In this document: piece by piece, positions 32,136 through 54,469 of the stretch
How positions within the stretch are numbered: the stretch's first letter is position 1
How the letters are laid out: each line of letters begins with the position of its first letter
NCBI GenBank assembly: GCA_015179125.1
Contig: WHVA01000438.1
Location: 1 to 64,000, forward strand
Reading direction: 5' to 3'
Source: Gautieria morchelliformis
Taxonomy: Eukaryota; Basidiomycota; Agaricomycetes; Gomphales; Gomphaceae
DNA: 64,000 bases
Position numbers and translations under genes: made by a program
The notes under the pieces: model-generated
What the model saw: only the letters and a program-made list of their open reading frames with translations
Told to the model about the DNA's origin: nothing
The model's database searches: none

Positions 32136-34056
32136 GCTTGTGTAAGGGCAACCCTGGCTGGTTGTGGAGATCACACTATCACACAACTGACAAGGGGAAA
32201 TCCAAAGTATGTATAAATGAACAGAGTATACAAGAGAGGGGATTCTCACCTGACAAGGGGAAATCCAAAGAGAAAAGTCTAAGGACCCCCAATGTCAGCG
32301 AGCCCGTATTATACTACGCTGCGCAGCCAGGGACAACACTTGGCACCCGCCATCAACCCTGCATACTCATGACCTCCCTGACCCTTGATCGACCCTTGAT
32401 GCCACCTATTACGCGAGTCGCTTGATTTCCGACACTGTTCCGAGAGTGGAAGTCGGAAATTGGAGTGGAACTGGCAAGGCGAACAGAACTGGTGGAAGTT
32501 CTCCCAGAAGCGGAATCATTTCCGAAAGCGGAGGCGGAGATGGAATTGGACCTGGAAGCGGAGTCGGAAATGGAGTCGGAACTCGGTGTGGTGTCGGAAC
32601 TGGAAATGGAAAACAGGGTGTCCCCTGACATCACCCCCCCTCTAGCGTGCTGCGTCCTTGAAGCACGGGACACGAGGGATTGAAATGCCAGTGAGCGGAT
32701 TCGGCAAGGGGCACCGGGGTGTGTCCTATAGAACTCATGGAGTTTGTCTGGAGCGGAAACATCTTGCTCCAGGACCCACGAATTCTCCTCATACCCATAC
32801 CCTTCCCATTTCATGAGGAATTGGAGTCGTCCTCGCACGAACCGGCTGTCCAGGATCCGTTCCACCACATAGTGTTCTTCCCCATCTACAATTTCCGGCG
32901 GAGGTGGCAGACGAGCCTTCCGACCTGGAATTGGGTCCTCAAGTGTAGGGAGTAACTTCACCACGTTGAAGACGGGGTGGAGGCGGGACATGGACATTGG
33001 AAGTCGGAGGCGGTATGCATTCCGTCCAACCCTCTGCATCACTGTGAAGGGCCCAAGGTAGCGGTTGGCAAGCTTCTGCAAAGGGCGTGTGGTGCGGATG
33101 TCACTTGCATCTAGATACACCTTGTCTCCAACTTGGTACTCCGGGGCAGGAACCCGGCGTTGGTTGTAGTACCTTGCCATGTCATCCTTGGCCTTCGCAA
33201 GGGCCGACTTGGCTTCCGAAAGGGTGGAGTCCATGCGGTCTCGGAACTCATTGACCGTCTCGAGTCGGGACTCAGCCTGGCGCGGTTCAAAGCCCATCCG
33301 CGGGTGTCGTCCGGAGTCAAGCATGAAGGGAGTCTGTTGTGTGGCGGAATGTACATGGTTGTTGTATTGGAATTCCGCCAGTGGAAGTAACTCATCCCAG
33401 TCATCCTGCCTCTCATGGACAAAGAGGCGGAGATATTGCTCCAACTCCTGATTGACCCGTTCTGTCTGTCCGTCACCTGTGGATGGTATGCTGTGGTGGT
33501 GGCCAGCTTTATGCCAAGCAGGTGGTAGAGCTCCCGAGTCAATTATGGGACAAATTGCGGACCTCGGTCGGAAACAACTTGCTTCGGGAGCCCATGCAAC
33601 TTCCAGACATGTGCAAGGAACAGGCGGGCCGCTCCGAGGGCTGTGATCATCGTGTGCGTTGGAATGAAGTGGGACACCTTGCTTACCGAATCCACGACGT
33701 TCATGATCGCGTCGTAGCCATGAGACTCTGGGAGTTCAACGATGAAGTCGACACTGATGGTGTCCCAGCGGGATTCAGGAATCGGGAGTGGAACAAGTTC
33801 TCCGATGGCGGATGTCGTTGCGCTTTGGTTCGGAGGCAAAGGTTGCATGTCTTCACGTATTGTCCAATGTAGCGGGACATCTGAGGCCACCAGTAATTCC
33901 GAGCCACTAACTCCAGCGTCTTCCACCTGCCAGCATGCCCAGCGACCCGTGTGTCATGGTGCTGGGACACGATGCAGCGGCGGAGGTTCGCCCCACCTGG
34001 AACATAGACCTTGCCTCTGAAGTGGAGCAGTCCATCACATTTGGACCATTCCGCTT

Positions 34057-35137
34057 TTAGATTAAAATGTTAATTAGTGCCTTTTTATCAAATGAAATCT
34101 GTTGCTTAGTGGTTGAAACCACTATGTTTGCCTCCCCTCTGTGTGCTGACTAAGCCCTTCGGGGCGCGTGCAACACTGATGAATGAGGGTCATGTGACCG
34201 TGTCGACAGAAGAACAGTGTCGATCCAAGGGATAGTCAAATCAAAAGCGTTCACTTTTAAGGTAGTATAGAGTAAACAGTGATAGTAGACTCTCAACGAA
34301 GATTTGGAATAAACTGTTAAGAATTGAGCTCTGTAACTATCAAACAAGATTACAGCAATTTCAGGAGGCAGAAAAAATCGATTCTGGATAATTTTGTTCA
34401 TACATTTGTACTAGCTATTTATACTATGTTGATAGTAACTTCTAGTGTTCAAGATATTGGATGGATGGGTCGAAAAACTACTTTGTAGCTAAGGGGTGAC
34501 TAATTTATAGTCATAAAGTCATAGGGTGATGGGGATAGTGTCAGGATTGTCTGGGCTTTGAAATAGAGATTTGTACCTAGTATACAAAGCCCCTGTCCAC
34601 ATGTTGTTAGGATAGTAATCAGTCAGACGTGTCATGGGATTCAAATAGAAAATGGATTTTGATTTTACTCTGCCCAGCATATATGCTGGGCTTGGAGATG
34701 GGGCCGCTGTCTCTGTGCCTCTCTTGTGTGGCAGCTGATTGAGTATATGTGTTGCAGATGACTTTCTCAGGTCACTCCACAACACCCTGTACCCCTGCGC
34801 AGTCTACTATTCTCTGCGGCGTTTGGTGCCCGTACCCCTCGGTACCTATGGCCTGGCGCCTGTCGATGTCATGGCTGATACCATCACCCGATAGGCGCGC
34901 CGTCCCTGATCGACCGCACGTGGCCGACGCTCGAACTCCTGTATATTACCCGATCTATGGGTAATATAGCGTGTCGTAAAATTCGTGTGATCGTCGTCTG
35001 CACCGACGTCTATCGTGAATGTAGTTTGTGTTTCTTTTGATTTTTCTTTTGTTTTTCTTTTGTTTTTCTTTTGTTTTTCTATTAGTTTCTTTTTATATAT
35101 AAATGATTTGAGTAAGATAATTGCGTTTATCACAACA
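34057..35137. mobile_element. Unidentified 1.08 kb insertion inside chromovirus copy 1
   Basis: Copy 2 of the chromovirus reads straight through GGACCATTCCGCTGCCCATAC in the antisense orientation. Copy 1 has this insert between two TCCGCT repeats (34,051-34,056 and 35,138-35,143), so the 5-6 bp repeat is probably a target duplication. The insert holds about four copies of the 11-mer TTTTTCTTTTG (35,039-35,085) and a TATATATAAA stretch next to them. It shows no inverted repeats and no domain, so its class is unknown. Confidence 0.7.
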
Positions 35138-35948
35138 TCCGCTGCCCGTACAGACCGTGAGTGCCCTTTCCGAAGTTCTTCCACCACCTTCACCACCGAC
35201 TCCTCCTTCTCTCCATTCCGGTACTGCCTCCGGATGTCCCCGAGCATTTCCGCTTCCGCCCCAACTGCAGTCACTCCCTCTAGGGCACGCATTGCAAAGA
35301 GACTTGGGTGGAGCAGTGTTATATCCGCGGTGTCTCCACTTCCGCTTCCATGATCCGCACGGCGGGATAGGGCATCGGGCTTGCCCATGGTGTGGCCGGG
35401 GCGGTGGTAGAGCATGAAGTCGAACCGGGACAGGTGTAGGGACCACCATGCTTGGCGTCGGTTCAACTTCTTTGACGTGCGGAAGTACTCGAGGTTCTTG
35501 TGGTCTGTCAAGATCTCAAATGGGCATAGGGCACCCTCGAGGAAGTGTCGCCACTCTTCCAGCGCTCGGATGATTGCTAGTATCTCCTTGTCATGGATCT
35601 CATAGTTCCGCTCAACCGGACTAAGGCTTTTAGAGAAAAAGGCAATCGGATGCCACCCCCCACCATCTTCCGATGACTGTTGCGAGAAGACCGCTCCGGT
35701 AGCTGTGTCGGAAGAATCTGCCTCGACTCGATAAGGGCAAGAGTCGTCGGGAAAGATCAGGACCGGGGCAGAAGTGATCAGCTCCTTGAGTTTGTCAAAG
35801 GAGGCCTGTTCCGGCTCTCCCCACCGCCACCCAACCTCCTTCTTGGTGAGGTCGAAGAGGGCACGGGCGTGGCAGGAGAAGTCCTTGATGAACCGCCGGT
35901 AGAAATTGACAAACCCAATGAAGGACTGGACCTCCTTCTTGTTCCGCG

Positions 35949-36636
35949 TGTTACGTATCGAGATTTCCACTAAGTCGGAACTGGAAAGGACAGCAGCTTC
36001 AACTTATAGGTTGCACCCCCAATGAACTATTGTCCTAGGTATTTCGGAAATGAGTCGGAAGTCGGAAAGTACTGGACCAAAGGTTTGGTTGGAACTTGAG
36101 TCGGAACTGAGGCGGAAGGCGGAAGACGGAGGGCTGAGAGAGACTGAGATCTTGCTAGACTCGCTGTGCTAAGAACAGGAGATGGAGCGAAGGAAATCAA
36201 GTATCGAAGGTGATTATCTGATTGCAGAATAACAGACATACATGAGGGGGTTTTATACAAAGCGCAGAACAACAAGTAATGGTATTGTACTAAGCAAATT
36301 CCAGAGGAAGCGGAAGTCGAGTAGACAATGTGTGGGAACTAACTGTTGGGAACAATGGGACTACAAGGGGGTTCAGGGTAAGGTAGAACAATGCAAAGAA
36401 CAAGGGGTTGGGAAAACATATCTGACAACGAACTACATTGGTGACTGGAGATATGGTTTTGATGGATGATGAAGCGGGTCCGGTGGGTCCGAGTAATAGA
36501 GTCGAAAGAACAAGGGAAATGTACAATGGGCGGAACGTCAGAAATATCGGAGGGGCGGAATGTATTGCGGAATATCGGGGGGGCGGAATGTGTGGCGGAA
36601 CTGAGGGTCGGAAGTCAGAAATGAACGGTCGTAACA
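35949..36636 (-). mobile_element. Solo LTR, family 2, within the pol region of chromovirus copy 1
   Basis: 688 bp, starting TGTTACG and ending CGTAACA, flanked by near-identical 5-bp repeats CCGCG and CCGTG. Copy 2 has the uninterrupted sequence at this place, confirming a later insertion. In minus orientation a TATA-like GTATAAAACCCCC lies in its middle. Only one LTR is present, so the internal part was lost by LTR-LTR recombination. Confidence 0.85.
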
Positions 36637-41345: not shown

Positions 41346-43401
41346 CCATCATGAGCAGGACTTTACGAAACATGTCAGGTGCTCAAGAAATCAACATCGC
41401 TGAAATTGATGAGCTCAACGTCGAATTTGTGCAAGCTGAGCGCAAAGTGGAAGAGCATAAGAACACTCTTATGTAAAAACGATGACTTGCGCAGGAGCAC
41501 AAGGAAGGGTTGGAAAAGAAATAGCTGGAGGATGCTCAAAAAGCCAAGGAGGAGCGGAAGGAATGGGAAGCACAGGCCAAAGCTGTGAAAAGAACCAACG
41601 AGGCCAAAAGGGCCAAGGATGAATGGAAAGTGCAGGAGGCCAAAGCCAAGGCTGAAAAACGCAAGAAAATAGATGATGACTTGTGGGCTGAAAGACTTTG
41701 GCAAGCCAAGAAAACACCAGCTGAGCCTGAATGGCCGTTGCAGATCACTATTGTTAGAGAATCAAGCAAGATGATAGCAGGTTCCAACTGTGTAAGGAGC
41801 TAGTGTACAACACGTAGAAAACTAATGAACCGTATGACGTCAACATGACGTTGCTTGCATTCCAACACACCTCCTTGAGCGACGGCTTCTCGAGTGACAG
41901 AAAGTCGAAATGTAATCAGAACAAAGAAGCTGCGATTTTATCGCCCGTTTCCTCCTTCTTCGGTTTGGGACAATTGGACTTGTAATGACCTTTCTTGCCA
42001 CAACTCAAGTGATCTCGGAAAGTTGCTTCTTGATTTTCTTGTTCTTGACATCTTGTACAGAATAGATAGGTCTTGAGAGTTCTACGACATCTTCGTGGGT
42101 ATTTTGTCGCACCTCCTCATTCAAAAGACGGGTGATGACATTTGGAAGTGTGAGTTCATTCGGGGGCAGGTTGGCAAGCGTGACGATAAGTGTAGAATAC
42201 AAACCTGGTAGTCTGGCAGTGAGTGCAAGAATGATGTCTTCATCAATAACTGTAACTCCAGCAGCGTCGAGACGGTATGCGGTATTTTTGACATCGGCTA
42301 TCCATGAATTCATGACCTGGTTGTCCTGTTTCTTCATATACAGGAATTCACGGCGAAGGGCAAGGTTGGTCACAAATTGGCGAGCGCGATGGACTTGTTC
42401 AAGGTTCTCCCAAATCTCAGTTGGGTTACTGACCCGAGCATGAGGGAGTTGGGATGGTTCGATGTGGAGAATGATTTTCGCGCGGGCCACTTCTTGCTTC
42501 TTAACATAAGCATGAACGGCCTTGGAGCTGTCAGTGCCTGTGGGGCGACGCTCAGTCCCATCAACCACATCCCAAAGGTCCTTCTCAATGAGCAGGGCCT
42601 CCATCATATAATGCTAGTCTGCATAATTCTATTCAGCTTCTCAAACTGAGTCTCTGGCATGATTGCAAGTGATTTGAGCTTTCGGTAGCCTCAACAATGG
42701 TGCACGCTTTCAGCAGGCATGACTTTCGACAATTGAGCTTTCGGTAGGCTCAACAACAGTGCACGCTTTCGATAGGCGTGTCAACTTCGGCCTTGACAGG
42801 CAAGGGGTGTATGCAGTTGTGTTAGAGAATCAAGTGAGATGATAGCAGGTTCCAACTGTGTAAGGAGCTAGTGAACAACACATAGAAAACTAATGAATCG
42901 TATGACGTCAACATGACGTCGCTCACATTCCAACAACTATGCCAGAAGACTGTCCGGTATTGGAGTCAGCAGTGGCCAGGGCCAAGGTGCTGAATGTCGA
43001 GATGCTGAGGTGATGGGAAGTTGGGGGTAAGTCTCGGGTGGGAGGCTCGGGGGCTTGGAAGCATACGGAGAAGCCAGAGGAAGAAGGGGAGCTTGACATC
43101 GGCAAGGAGTTCTGAACATGGTGTACGTGAATCGCCAGCGGAACTCAAAGTTCATCTGGTACATGTCGCAATGGGTGATGGCAGCAGGACAAGCTGGCAA
43201 ATGGAGACTGATATGGGTTTTGGGGTTTGGGTTCAGACTCAAGTTTCAAGGATGAAATGGAAAGGGGGGAATCAGAAAAAAGAAAAGGGAAGGGCAAACA
43301 GAGGGAAACAGAAAATGCTGAGGAAGGTTCGAAGGGACTTTGAAAATGAAGATAGGGACAAGGATATGGAAACAGATGAGGAAGGAAAAATTTTAGAATA
43401 G
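41346..43401 (+). pseudogene. Degenerate Lys/Glu-rich coiled-coil frame, interrupted
   Basis: From about 41,371 the plus strand reads SGAQEINIAEIDELNVEF and then, with in-frame stops, a long Lys/Glu/Ala-rich coiled-coil stretch (EGLEKK, DAQKAKEERKEWEAQAKA, KRAKDEWKVQEAKAKAEK, DDDLWAERLWQAKKTPAEP). At the ACTAT site it is cut by the gag-only copia element (41,752-42,935). The plus strand continues after it (MPEDCPVLESAVARAKVLN), followed by a basic Lys/Arg-rich frame at 43,021-43,401. I do not recognise the family; similar coiled-coil frames occur in fungal repeats. Confidence 0.45.
41752..42935 (-). mobile_element. Copia-type gag-only element (TR-GAG-like), 1,184 bp
   Basis: Two 116-bp LTRs (42,820-42,935 as 5', 41,752-41,867 as 3') start TGTTGGAATG and end TTCTCTAACA in element orientation. 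A perfect 5-bp target duplication ACTAT flanks them (41,747-41,751 and 42,936-42,940). Between them on the minus strand is an open gag frame of 200 residues (42,607-42,005), with the copia/UBN2-type pattern: KDLWDVVDGTERRPTG, EIWENLEQVHRARQF, FLYMKKQDNQVMNSWIADV, LPGLYSTLIVTLANLP and TRLLNEEVR. A zinc-knuckle-like CGKKGHYKSNCPK follows at about 42,005-41,960. There is no room for pol. The LTRs differ at about 8 of 116 positions, so it is older than chromovirus copy 1. Confidence 0.8.
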
Positions 43402-48559: not shown

Positions 48560-49044
48560 GTTTGGGTTAGTTCCACCTGCGCTAACCACCCTCCGAGAGA
48601 ACTGTTGATCTTCATCAACAATCCATGTTGCCAACCAGTTTATCTCCACATTGAGTCTCATTATTTCTTCCTGGGCCTAAGTCCACTTGAGATGAAACAT
48701 AGTAGCTTGTAGAGTGTTGGCATCAGCCCATTCCAAGTTCCAAATGTCCTTTCAGGCCCCTGCCTGGAGCAGCTCAAACTCTACGAGTCTTGTATATCCA
48801 CAATCTGAGCCAAACTTAAAGTAGGACAAGGGACTTCAAGGCATGCAGCAGCCTTGTTGTACACTGCTAGAGCTCTCTGTATAGCCTTGGAGTCAGCTTT
48901 CAAGGCCTTTGAGATGTGCATCCACATATTATAACCTATGGCAATTACAACAAGTGGATAAGTGTATTTGATGACAAACATACCTGTCTGTGAGACATTG
49001 GCGTTGGTAGGTTCAAACAGACGTTGGACTACTAGTCCTTCCAA
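48560..49044 (-). mobile_element. KDZ-type DNA transposase, C-terminal fragment
   Basis: The minus strand reads GYNMWMHISKALKADSKAIQ, RALAVYNKAAACLEVPCPTL, LAQIVDIQD, then after in-frame stops AQEEIMRLNVEINWLATWI. This is the helical C-terminal block I associate with Kyakuja/Dileera/Zisupton transposases of Agaricomycetes (a 'KALKARSKAIRTAL..YN.AA..L.PPRP.L' stretch followed by 'A.EEI.RLN.EI.RL'). The catalytic core is missing, at least three stops interrupt it (about 48,782, 48,754 and 48,679) and it abuts an RNase H fragment, so it is a relic. Confidence 0.6.
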
Positions 49045-52000
49045 CGAAAAGCGGAAGCAGCGGAAGAGAGGATGTCGGCGAAGTTAGCAAAGGTCAAACC
49101 CGCAACTCCGGCAGACTTTGACAGACATCGGGAGAAGGGACGCGCATTCTTCAACACATGCAGCATCTACTTCGCAATTGTCGGAGACCTCTTTCCGAAC
49201 GACCAGGCTCGGATCCACTGGGCATTGTCCTTTTTCAAGTCGGACCACGCAGCCCGTTTTGCAAACAAGGTGATCCGACATGAAGCAAAGGGCAAGGGGA
49301 ACTACTTCCGGGACTGGGACGCCTTCGAGAAAACATTTTCCGACCAGTTCTGCCCGAAAAACGAGCAGCTCACAGCCCTTACGAAGCTCGAGGGGACAAG
49401 CTGGTACCAGGCCAAGGATCTGGTCGATGACTACATCGATCGCTTCCAGGAGCTCATTGACCTTGTGGAGTATGACGACGACAAGACGATCGTCATCAAA
49501 TTCCGACGAGGACTTGATCCGACACTCCAGAACCAAGTCGCGCTGCTTGGGGATGGAGCTCCGGATTTTGATGACCCGGAAGGGTGGTACCACGCTGCGC
49601 AGAGGGTGTCCCGGAACAGGGAAGCAAATGAGGCCTTCGTGGAGACAAACCGGAACATGACACGCAGTTCCACTCGTCCTACTCCACCTGTGCCAAAACC
49701 CGGAAGTGCATTACTCCCACACGGAAAATATTTCCGATGGTTGCTCCGCCTGCTCCTATTAGGAACCATAGCCCTCCTCCCTCGAAGAGTGGCCCTGCCC
49801 CGATGGATGTTGACCGCATGCGTGGAAAAGGCCACAGAACTATCACCTGCTTCCGATGCCAAAAACGAGGTCACTATGCTCGCGAGTGCCCCCAAGCCTT
49901 TGACATCTGGCTTATGACCACGGAGGAGAAACTCAAGCTCCTTCCAGAGTTCCTCGCACTCGCGGACATGAGCGGAGTGCCCTCTGCGGAAGGAATTTCC
50001 GAAAATGCGGAACATGGTGCATCGGGAGTGGAAGATGCGTCGGATTTTGTGACGTGCAGCGGGTGAGATGTGTGCCCCTGCTGCCTGTACATAACTGGTT
50101 TGCCTGTCTTGAAGTAGAGAATGAAAACCCCCCACTCCCCTCGTTTCGTACAGACCCACCGGATAAAGTCACACAAAAACCGAACCCGACACCCCGTCCA
50201 TCCCGCATCCGCCCTTGGGAGAGACACCTCCCGAAGCGCTATGTCGTTGCTTCCACCCCTGGCCCCAAGTCACTAGTCATTAAGGTGGAGATCCAGACAA
50301 CAGATACTGCGGAAGTCAAATCCGGACCCGCCCTTGTCGATTGCGGGGCCACTGGTCAGTGTATAGACCGGGACTATGTGGAACGGAACCGACTGACCAC
50401 ATGGAAGTTGCAACGTGCAATCCTGGAATTCACTGTGGATGGAAGCCCCAACGAGGCAGGGTCCATCACGGAGATAGTAGACACAATTCTCCGCTATGAT
50501 GGGCACACAGAATGCACTTCCTTTGCAGTGACCAGCCTGGGGAAGCAAGACATCATCCTCGGGTTTACCTGGCTCCAGGAGCACAACCCGGAGATCAATT
50601 GGCAGACTCGGAAGGTGCTAATGAGTCGGTGCCCAGCCAAGTGTCGTATGTGCTGGTCGGAAGTGCGGAAGGAGCGCCAGGAGCAGTGGAAGACTGAACG
50701 GCTCATACAGACATGTCGTTCTGGCCCCCATCCACTGCTTGCAGAAGACGACTCGGAAGCGGAATTTGAACCGGCTCCCACATCCAATTCCGATTTCAAT
50801 TCCGACTCCGTCATCATAAGACTCAGCCCGGAAGAGACTCTGGAGGATGGGGAGCGCTTGCTGTACGTAAACCTTCCACCGGAAGCGGAACACATCCGTT
50901 CCACCGGAAATATTTCGCAATGCCTTGCTGAAGCCTCCAAGAAGCATGATAAAGCGGAGGTGGAAATTCCAGAGTACCTGCGGGAGTTCGAGGATGTCTT
51001 TGCCAAGGAGTCATTTGATGCCCTGCCTCCATGAAAGCTTTGGGACCATGCCATCGAGTTGGAGCCTGGGTCAAAGCCCACCAACTTCAAAGTCTACCCG
51101 CTGTCACCCAAGGAGCAGGCAGAGCTCGATGCATTCCTTGCGGAAAACCTCCGTACAGGGAGGATCCACCCCTCCAAGTCACCCATGGCATCTCCGGTGT
51201 TCTTCATCAAGAAGAAGGACGGCTCGCTCAGACTTGTGCAGGACTACCGGGCCTTGAATGCGATCACAATCAAGAACCGGTACCCCATTCCACTCATTTC
51301 CGAACTGATCACACAACTCCACGGGGAGAGGTACTTCACTAAGCTAGATGTCCACTGGGGCTTCAATAATGTTTGGATCCAAGAGGGAGACGAGTGGAAG
51401 GCCACATTCCGCACCAACTGGGGACTCTTTGAGCCACAGGTCATGTTCTTTGGCCTCACCAACAGTCCCGCCACATTCCAGACGATGATGAATGACATTT
51501 TCCGTGACATGATAGTGGAAGGGGTTGTCTGCGTCTACCTCGATGACATCCTCATCTTCACAAAAACAATGTCGGAACATCGGGAGGTTGTGCAGAGAGT
51601 GCTGGAATGGCTCCGGGAGTACAACCTGTGTCTCAAGCCGGAAAAGTGCGAATTTGAGCGGACACGGATAGAATATCTTGGGGTGATTGTGTCGGAGGGC
51701 AGGGTGGAAATGGACCCAGTCAAAGTTTCCGGTGTATCGGATTGGCCTGTGCCGCGGAACAAGAAGGAGGTCCAGTCCTTCATTGGGTTTGTCAATTTCT
51801 ACCGGGGGTTCATCAAGGACTTGTCCTGCCATGCCCGTGCCCTCTTCGACCTCACCAAGAAGGAGGTTGAATGGCGGTGGGGAGAGCCAGAACAGGCCTC
51901 CTTTGACAAACTCAAGGAGCTGATCACTTCCGCCCCGGTCCTGATCTTTCCCGACGACTCTCGCCCTTATCGAGTCAAGGCGTATTCTTCCGACACAGCT

Positions 52001-54469
52001 ACCAGAGCGGTCTTGTTGCAACAGTCATCGGAAGATGGTGGGGGGTGGCATCCGATTGCCTGTTTCTCTAAAAGCCTTAGTCCGGTTGAGTGGAACTATG
52101 AGATCCACGACAAGGAGATGCTGGCAATCATCCGAGCACTGGAGGAGTGGCAACACTTACTCGAGGGTTCTCTGTGCCTGTTTGAGATCTGGACAGACCA
52201 CAAGAACCTTGAGTACTTCCGCACGTCTAAGAAGTTGAACCGACGCCAAGCACGATGGTCCCTACACCTTTCCTGGTTCGACTTCATGCTCCACCACCGC
52301 CCTGGCAGCACCATGGGCAAACCCGATGCCCTATCCCGCTGTGCGGATCATGGAAGTGGAAGTGGAGACACCACTGATATGACACTGCTCCGCCCAAGTC
52401 TCTTTGCAATCCGCACCCTAGAGGGAGTGACTGCAGTTGGGGCGGAAGCGGAAATGCTCCGGGACATCCGGAGGCAGTACCGGAATGGAGAGAAGGAGGA
52501 GTCGATGGTGAAGGCGGTGGAAGAACTTCGGAAAGGGCACTCACGGTCTGTATGGGCAGCGGAATGGTCCAAACATGATGGACTGCTCCACTTCAGAGGC
52601 AAGGTCTATGTTCCAGGTGGGGCGGACCTCTGCCGCCGCATCGTGTCCCAGCACCATGACACACGGGTCGCTGGGCATGCTGGCAGGTGGAAGACACTGG
52701 AATTAGTGGCTTGGAACTACTGGTGGCCTCAGATGTCCCGCTACATTGGACAGTACATGAAGACATGTGACCTTTGTCTCCGAACCAAAGTGCAACGACA
52801 TCCGCCCGTCGGAGAACTTGTTCCACTCCCAATTCCGGAATCCCTCTGGGACACCATCAGTGTTGACTTCATCGTTGAACTCCCAGAGTCCCATGGCTAT
52901 GACACAATCATGAATGTAATGGACCCGGTAAGCAAGGTGTCCCACTTCATTCCGATACACACAATGATCACGGCCCTTGCAGCGGCCCGCCTGTTCCTTG
53001 CGCAAGTCTGGAAGTTGCATGGGCTCCCGAAGCAAGTTGTTTCCGACCGAGGTCCGCAGTTTGTCGCGGAACTGACTCGGGAGCTCTACCGCCTGCTTGG
53101 AATAAAGCTGGCTACCACCACAGCGTACCATCCTCAGGGTGACGACAGAACGGGTCAATCAGGAGTTGGAGCAATATCTCCGCCTCTTCGTCAATGAGAG
53201 GCAGGATGACTGGGATGAGTTACTTCCACTGGCGGAATTCCAATACAACAACCATGTACATTCCGCCACACAACAGACTCCCTTCATGCTGGACTCTGGA
53301 CGACACCCGCGGATGGGCTTCGAGCCACGCCAGGCAGAGTCCCGACTCAAGCCGGTCAATGAGTTCCGAGACCGCATGGACTCCACCCTTTCGGAAGCCA
53401 AGTCGGCCCTTGCGAAGGCCAAGGATGACATGGCAAGGTACTACAACCAACACTGGGTTCCTGCCCCGGAGTACCAAGTCGGAGACAAGGTGTATCTAGA
53501 TGCAAGTGACATCCGTACCATGCGCCCTTCACAAAAGCTTGCCCACCGCTACCTTGGGCCCTTCACAGTGATGCGGAGGGTTGGACGGAATGCATACCGC
53601 CTCTGACTTCCGATGTCCATGTCCCGCCTCCACCCCGTCTTCAACGTGGTGAAGTTACTCCCTACTCTTGAGGACCCAATTCCAGGTCGGAAGGCTCGTC
53701 CGCCACCTCCGCCGGAAATTGTAGATGGGGAAGAGCACTATGTGGTGGAACAGGTCCTGGACAGCCGGTTTGTGGGAGGATGACTCCAATTCCTTGTGAA
53801 ATGGGAAGGGTATGGGTATGAGGAGAATTCGTGGGTCCCGGAGCAAGATGTCTCCGCTCCAGACAAACTCCGCGAGTTCTATAGGACACACCCTGGTGCC
53901 CCTCGCCAAATCCGCTCACTGGCATTTCAATCCCTCGTGTCCTGTGCTTCGAGGATGCAGCATGCTAGAGGGGGGGTGATGTCAGGGGACACCCTGTTTT
54001 CCATTTCCAGTTCCGACACCACATCCAGTTCCGACACCATTTCCGACTCCGGTTCCGGTTCCGATTCCATCCCCACCTCCGCTTTCGGAAATGATTCCGC
54101 TTCTGGGAGAACTTCCACCAGTTCTGTTCGCCTTGCCAGTTCCACTCCAATTTCCGACTTCCACTCTCGGAACAGTGTCGGAAATCAAGCGACTCGCGTA
54201 ATAGGTGGCATCAAGGGTCGATCAAGGGTCAGGGAGGTCAGGAGGATGCAGGGTTGATGGTGGGTGCCAAGTGTTGTCCCTGGCTGTGCAGCGTAGTATA
54301 ATACGGGCTCGCTGACATTGGGGGTCCTTAGACTTTTCTCTTTGGATTTCCCCTTGTCAGGTGAGAATCCCCTCTCTTGTATACTCTGTTAATTTATACA
54401 TACTTTGGATTTCCCCTTGTCAGTTGTGTGGTAGTGTGATCTCCACAACCAGCCAGGGTTGCCCGTACA
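49045..54469 (+). mobile_element. Ty3/gypsy chromovirus copy 2, 5'-truncated
   Basis: Same family as copy 1, opposite strand. Parts in order: gag (about 49,072-50,066; NEQLTALTKLEGTSWYQAKD, CCHC knuckle CFRCQKRGHYARECP), protease (about 50,330, VDCGAT), reverse transcriptase (about 51,060-51,740; [25 protein letters not shown]), RNase H (about 51,950-52,330), integrase (about 52,640-53,460; HHDTRVAGHAGRWK, CDLC zinc finger) and chromodomain (about 53,740-53,870; MKWEGYGYEENSW). A purine-rich tract and the single LTR (53,980-54,469) follow. The left LTR and leader are absent. It is broken, with about five breaks, and provides empty sites for two of the insertions in copy 1. Confidence 0.88.

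Follow-up and report, generated by a model that had tools for sequence, protein, structure and literature searches.

The window, a 64,000-nucleotide stretch of the Gautieria morchelliformis contig WHVA01000438.1, contains at 41752-42935 a short LTR element with its gag on the minus strand. An earlier note, made from the sequence alone, had described a copia-type element reduced to two LTRs and an open gag frame, and its account of the boundaries was borne out. The 116-bp LTRs at 41752-41867 and 42820-42935 are direct repeats with 93% identity (8 mismatches), the ACTAT target-site duplication (TSD) at 41747-41751 and 42936-42940 is perfect, and no pol lies between the LTRs in the three sense frames that were read. 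The marks of the Ty1/copia superfamily are present, namely a PF14223 gag, TG..CA LTR ends and a 5-bp TSD. The features, in the order of gag transcription, are:

42936..42940: target-site duplication ACTAT, right copy
42820..42935, minus strand: 5' LTR (in the sense of gag), TGTTGGAA..TCTCTAACA, 116 bp
42853..42858, minus strand: counterpart of the presumed primer site within the LTR, complementary to it and 39 nt ahead of the LTR end; predicted transcript start
42661..42819, minus strand: leader from the 5' LTR to gag, 159 nt
42811..42819, minus strand: presumed primer site, the first 9 nt after the 5' LTR
42760..42782, minus strand: hairpin unit 1, stem CACGC/GCGTG, loop CTATCGAAA
42732..42754, minus strand: hairpin unit 2, stem TGAGC/GCTCA, loop CTACCGAAA
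42701..42723, minus strand: hairpin unit 3, stem CATGC/GCGTG (one G-U pair), loop CTGCTGAAA
42673..42695, minus strand: hairpin unit 4, decayed, 4 of 5 pairs
42658..42660, minus strand: ATG matching the gag start of intact copies (MPETQ..)
42008..42613, minus strand: central gag frame, 202 codons (42005-42613 with the stop), copia gag PF14223
41916..42116, minus strand: open stretch in a different frame, zinc-knuckle remnant and gag end
41868..41879, minus strand: purine-rich tract CTCAAGGAGGTG adjoining the 3' LTR, probable plus-strand primer
41752..41867, minus strand: 3' LTR, 116 bp, 8 mismatches relative to the 5' LTR
41747..41751: target-site duplication ACTAT, left copy

Elsewhere in the window, long frames at 49036-53197 (plus strand) and 32353-36003 (minus strand) resemble, by eye, Ty3/gypsy gag, protease, reverse transcriptase and integrase.

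The 200-residue copia gag frame of the earlier note was recovered as a 202-codon minus-strand match to Pfam Retrotran_gag_2 (PF14223; E 2e-29), but the gag is broken and only its middle is open. When aligned to the gag of sister copy L006 (250 aa), the window gag falls into three pieces in three frames, corresponding to residues 1-18, 11-219 and 222-250, the last of which holds the zinc-knuckle end and scores just under the Pfam cut-off (19.2 vs 20.8 bits). An in-frame stop, in place of the Trp of most copies, precedes the middle frame. The split over three frames rules out the window copy as a working gag; AlphaFold2, run on its single sequence, gave a mean pLDDT of 39.9, and this model was set aside. 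The window gag is a pseudogene, and open frames occur in sister copies. Because the frame is broken, the argument for a maintained Gag protein that had been drawn from this copy is weak. The window leader is also shorter than the leaders of the 12 sister copies that were read (159 nt vs 204-225 nt).

Copies were sought in the 122-Mb assembly (1113 contigs; 26 hydrophobin gene matches above cut-off, which indicate a filamentous fungus), and all copy counts given here are lower bounds. A DNA search with the window element returned at least 62 matches (best 40 of 93 candidates scored), and at least 13 other places gave matches of about 1 kb or longer. We call this family A; at least 13 near-complete copies of it are present in the genome, 12 with a perfect and distinct 5-bp TSD. 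Both LTRs, in part incomplete, were present at 12 places besides the window (L002-L013). At 13 of the 17 places with ends read, the window itself and an internally deleted copy (L019) included, a perfect 5-bp duplication was observed, and all were different; at the ends taken for L002, L014, L018 and L027 no TSD was found. Six of the 13 near-complete copies have a complete gag (L003, L005, L006, L007, L009, L013). In the copies on C360 and C510, gag is interrupted by about 7.5 kb and about 5 kb, respectively. The contig pairs C406/C990 and C415/C1010 carry like elements at like offsets or spacings, suggesting that some copies may be assembly duplicates or alleles.

A single copy, the earlier note had argued, would point to a one-off internal deletion. 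The many copies with one common structure and differing TSDs exclude such an event, including a single deletion copied by chance. The copy in the window is a degenerate member of a copia family that is mobile and carries gag only.

Family A is not alone in the genome. A protein search with gag listed 100 matches at 44-100% identity, representing 81 loci with frames of at most 356 aa; below this group came a gap and then, among the best 150 of 1377 candidates, matches of at most 34% identity with frames of up to 1465 aa. Flanks were read for selected matches among the 81 loci, many of which are fragments. At least four further gag-only families were found. Each has paired LTRs and a complete gag frame, and the copies read contain no pol:

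Family B: gag of 253 aa, LTR of about 165 bp
Family C: gag of 287 aa, LTR of about 86 bp
Family D: gag of 271 aa, LTR of about 210 bp
Family E: gag of 296 aa, LTR of about 230 bp

By eye, 5-bp duplications flank all seven of the gag-only loci L061-L067. The LTR pairs of L065 (family D) and L066 (family E) are 100% identical, over the whole length in L065 and over the aligned part in L066, whose 5' LTR lacks part of its start; such identity indicates recent movement. A DNA search with a family B element gave 16 places longer than 1 kb, two of which are possibly one copy on two contigs. In L070 (C189:1000-6200), a family D copy with LTRs 99.5% identical, the leader contains about 3 kb of extra DNA, in which no pol-like frame of 150 aa or more was found on the sense strand. 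LTR matches (best 40 of 60 for A, 24 of 24 for D, best 40 of 90 for E) included no pair marking a gag-pol element, the wide pairs being L070 and the C360 copy. As a separate observation, a 29-bp repeat containing CTGGGGCCGAAGCCAG occurs twice in the family D leaders of L064 and L065 and may form a hairpin of another kind.

Maintenance of the Gag protein, which the earlier note had suggested and proposed to examine by dN/dS, is supported by purifying selection on gag in families A and B. The sample comprised 8 A and 5 B frames, picked as long and open (L011 was cut at its frameshift, L008 lacks the first residues and L075 begins with Ile instead of Met). The ratio of mean dN to mean dS was 0.226 for A (28 pairs) and 0.288 for B (10 pairs), and the means of the dN/dS ratios were 0.255 and 0.308. 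Neutral simulations that followed the observed spectrum of changes and held the frame open gave means of 0.72 (A) and 0.82 (B), and none of the 400 runs per family reached the observed means; single observed pairs ranged up to 0.43 (A) and 0.57 (B). Families C, D and E gave 0.29-0.43 from 1, 3 and 1 pairs, too few to weigh, and the gags of gag-pol elements gave 0.13-0.16 in the same calculation. These comparisons are between copies that are gag-only already, so the selection took place in the gag-only state. In a maximum-likelihood gag tree, 20 gag-only and 11 gag-pol sequences were separated by one branch with support 92/90, the first value being under the 95 mark, and the split was present in 94% of 200 bootstrap trees; the tree is unrooted, and long gag-pol branches meet in it.

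The leaders of families A and B contain a row of 4-7 small units, each with a 5-bp stem whose arms vary and are complementary, around a constant CUANCGAAA-type loop (9 nt, type CTANCGAAA). For statistical assessment, units were chosen by the loop motif only, in 24 leaders (13 A, 4 B and 7 from the gag-less elements described below), which gave 160 units, 85 of them distinct; many are tandem or inherited duplicates. The innermost stem pair is not an independent test because the loop motif includes the first G of the 3' arm. Stem cells were paired in 88.9% of cases as compared with 72.5 +/- 1.1% when the arms were re-dealt (0 of 500 shuffles), and 83 cells were changed on both sides vs 27.3 +/- 6.6 after shuffling (0 of 500). 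Controls with the stem slid along the sequence reached at most 53.2% pairing and 31 both-side-changed cells. The sixth stem position is unpaired (pairing in 19 of 85 units), and eight different fully Watson-Crick stems occur. The number of pairs with any both-side change, 4, is uninformative, being equally high in 423 of 500 shuffles. A pairing excess was found within single elements (L103 and L094, 0 of 2000 shuffles each; L009, 13 of 2000; L061, 17 of 2000), and the four-unit window array taken alone exhibited none (318 of 2000). G-U cells exceeded A-C cells modestly, by 21 to 14 at pairs 2-4 and by 19 to 7 at pairs 2-3. Strong folding of the leader as a whole was not supported, with unremarkable z values of -0.03 (window copy), -1.02 (L007) and -1.86 (L094).

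A covariance model of the array found four sites in the 64-kb window, all within the leader of the window element. With model R1 and E up to 1, no array was detected in 19 family C, D, E and gag-pol loci; thus the array is not needed for gag-only life as such. The exact array pattern occurs at 91 sites in the genome, as compared with 0 for the reversed control pattern. Of these, 61 have a gag-only gag match no more than 1.5 kb away and 19 lie in other fetched or LTR-matched elements; of the 11 remaining sites, eight overlap DNA matches to L103 (C307: array only). The sites outside all these elements are C147:46595, C156:122491 and C304:249545.

The array is also found in elements without gag. 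L094 (C448), L095 (C588), L096 (C726), L097 (C142) and L103 (C417) are LTR-bounded elements of 0.7-0.9 kb with LTR pairs 95-99% identical, and none has a gag match under E 0.09 (one spurious match at the L095 LTR was discounted). Their arrays comprise 6 to 13 stems of at least 3 bp; counted by loop motif, the L094 array has 16 units. The TSD is perfect in L094, L095, L097 and L103 and agrees in 4 of 5 bases in L096, and the LTR of L103 is a different one. In their small size and LTR-bounded structure without a significant gag match these elements are similar to TRIMs, and L094, L095, L097 and L103, whose coding was judged by gag match alone, combine shortness, LTRs and TSD in the same way. Unlike TRIMs, however, they keep and expand a hairpin array common to the gag-only elements. 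Other copies retain traces of gag. L099 and L101 carry the array with a remnant of a B-type gag end (E 1e-4 and 1e-5), L100 retains gag pieces, and the end of L094 resembles a gag end by eye; L098 and L102 were read only partially. In the E-type derivative L105 most of gag is lost and the E leader is kept. L104 has an E gag end before it and may represent a tandem arrangement. Neither L104 nor L105 has the array according to covariance model R1. A CACACYGGAA motif is repeated in the E-type leader, with more copies in L105, and no hairpin was seen at these repeats. That the array is kept where there is no gag to translate argues for a role in cis in the handling of the RNA.

The sequence directly after the 5' LTR forms another common element. 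Many copies of A, B, D and E have there a 9-nt stretch, anchored at the first base, whose complement is found in the LTR, 41-85 nt upstream of the LTR end. The sequences of site and segment vary among families: CAACTGCGT/ACGCAGTTG in A, CAAACGGAT/ATCCGTTTG in B and E, and CAAACGCAT/ATGCGTTTG in D. In L103, 11 nt are complementary to its own LTR, and in L012 both the primer site and the LTR segment are changed. At least 9 Watson-Crick pairs from the first base were present in 11 of 29 elements (26 of which are A, B, D, E or derivatives; L011 was left out), and in each of the 11 no other of 59 offsets gives so long a run. L066, L067 and L070 were cut 1-2 nt off among the 29, and the 9-nt run was present in them on separate check. 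The run is absent in L005, L007, L010, L013 and L061, among others, and in the window copy, with 6 nt of complementarity only. A looser control, allowing G-U pairs and any offset, was less clear-cut: elements with runs of at least 9 were matched in run length by 0 to 64 of 200 shuffled LTRs, and family C has a 10-nt run as well when G-U is allowed. The case for self-priming lies in the same anchoring in families with different sequences.

A different type of site, similar to a half tRNA-iMet, was found in family C and in 7 of 11 gag-pol loci checked. The start after the LTR is GGTTATGGGCCCCGC in family C and in the gag-pol locus L069; GGTTATGGGCCC is present in 6 of 10 further gag-pol loci (L085, L086, L088, L090, L091, L068), with a close variant in L083, and is absent in L084, L087 and L089. 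This sequence resembles the half tRNA-iMet site of Drosophila copia. In the stretch read of gag-pol family R (L087 with L106), neither a self-complementary site nor any of five tRNA-type primer motifs was found.

Tf1 of fission yeast is a Ty3/gypsy element with its own pol. In common with Tf1 and the plant copia TAR lineage, the A, B, D and E elements show complementarity between the sequence following the LTR and part of the LTR itself; in the parts of the papers available to us, Tf1 is described as self-priming (PMC5445492) and self-priming is predicted for the plant copia elements (PMC6317226). The elements described here differ from Tf1 in being without pol, and their transcript start is predicted only.

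Our preferred reading, to which we assign a probability of roughly 0.6, is that these elements form a gag-only lineage with its own Gag and borrowed Pol, in which family A is one of at least five related families and array-only elements are carried along. The element would make its own Gag, which would gather the element RNA via the hairpin array, and an autonomous copia element would supply protease, reverse transcriptase and integrase. Minus-strand DNA synthesis would start, as in Tf1, from the folded-back 5' end of the element's own transcript on the primer site; in family C and in most of the gag-pol loci checked, the primer would instead be a half tRNA-iMet. The gag-less derivatives would enter the same particles via the array alone, giving layers of gag-pol, gag-only and array-only elements. 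The array, the gag-less derivatives and the self-complementary primer site are new relative to the earlier note.

It may be argued that internal deletion of an autonomous copia element produced the gag-only copies time and again, and that gag conservation was inherited from this parent, with no selection on gag once pol had been lost. The plant TR-GAG AT5TE33540 is indeed highly similar to a potentially autonomous copia element (PMC8704663, in the part available to us), and acidic ..AF tails (..GFAF, ..DAAF and ..VAF) close the gag frames of B, D and E and recall the ..DFAF found shortly upstream of protease in gag-pol elements. Still, no gag-pol-sized frame with more than 34% gag identity was present among the best 150 of 1377 candidates, the five gag-only families lie on one side of one branch, and dN/dS is low among copies that already share the gag-only structure, and we consider this explanation unlikely. 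Far less credible is retention of gag as a host restriction factor. Its precedent is Ty1 p22, a Gag fragment that can inhibit particle assembly according to the part of PMC4599808 available to us; here, however, the conserved gag sits in numerous independent insertions that have LTRs and TSDs, with identity between paired LTRs of up to 100%, and the leader and primer site are kept along with it.

As to the array itself, a function in translation or transcription, by leader control or as binding sites for a DNA-binding protein, would fit its position directly upstream of gag, the unremarkable folding of the whole leader and the modest size of the G-U over A-C asymmetry, which would mark an RNA strand. 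Derivatives without a gag frame nevertheless keep and expand the array, and its arms vary by unit yet stay complementary, for which a fixed DNA half-site has no need; we regard such a function as possible but distinctly the less probable alternative. The array is probably the packaging signal of the element, exploited by gag-less hyperparasites. Some RNA phages use a hairpin for packaging. More tentatively, at somewhat less than even odds, the array may be a code of repeated RNA units that is read by the Gag of the gag-only elements themselves, a natural series of 4-16 tandem capsid-protein-binding hairpins, which would have let an independent gag-only lineage persist on borrowed Pol and then be parasitised by array-only elements in a three-layer chain.

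The closest known counterparts are the TR-GAG elements of plants, whose founding paper is reportedly that of Chaparro and others (2015). The comparisons below draw on the parts of the cited papers that were available to us. Like TR-GAG elements, with two LTRs, a single gag frame and no pol (PMC8704663), the elements described here have LTRs and TSD around a short interior, with no pol in the copies read from LTR to LTR; a single complete gag is present at the family level, in A-E copies, and is missing from the window copy. One TR-GAG moves in Arabidopsis ddm1, and the Arabidopsis element closely resembles a potentially autonomous one (PMC8704663), which the gag-only families here do not. A partner of that kind, which may not be a defining trait, was not found among the best-scored LTR and gag matches. 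Further differences are the fungal host, a Gag diverged from every gag-pol element found, the leader array and the self-complementary primer site.

The fungal GalEa copia elements are similar in host kingdom, 5-bp TSD and a hairpin beside the LTR (PMC5445492). GalEa elements are 5.4-7.0 kb long, contain a large single ORF and have one hairpin, with 9-nt arms, that replaces the primer site (PMC5445492), whereas the arrays here have 4-16 units with a 5-bp stem and a near-constant loop. The GalEa Conserved Hairpin Site, a palindrome of CTGATCAGT/CTAATTAGT type after the LTR, is absent from the leaders here, which begin with CAACTGC, CAAACG or GGTTATGGG. In Ty1 and Ty3, as proposed here, recognition by Gag involves the 5' part of the RNA. 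A pseudoknot region of Ty1 is bound by Gag, although it could not be demonstrated that the pseudoknot has a role in packaging; this region and further Gag sites are described there, with no tandem hairpin array (PMC4974528). In the open-licence literature, as far as its texts were accessible, we found no report of a fungal gag-only copia family, nor of a tandem hairpin array in the leader of an LTR element (the words 'tandem hairpin' occur in PMC5767303 and PMC7395439), and the parts consulted of a fungal transposable element survey (PMC4905642) contain nothing on gag-only elements.

Gag-only retrotransposons could be either debris of deletions or parasites that sustain themselves. This fungal lineage of five families bears on that question, as it combines selection on gag, without a closely related pol element found, with a testable RNA module that gag-only elements and gag-less derivatives have in common. 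The array offers a direct route to asking how a copia Gag picks its RNA, and together with Gag it may constitute a compact natural RNA-protein tethering system. Finally, family C (L063, L077) is the sole gag-only family seen with a half-tRNA-type site, which it has in common with the gag-pol locus L069, providing a lead to the helper.
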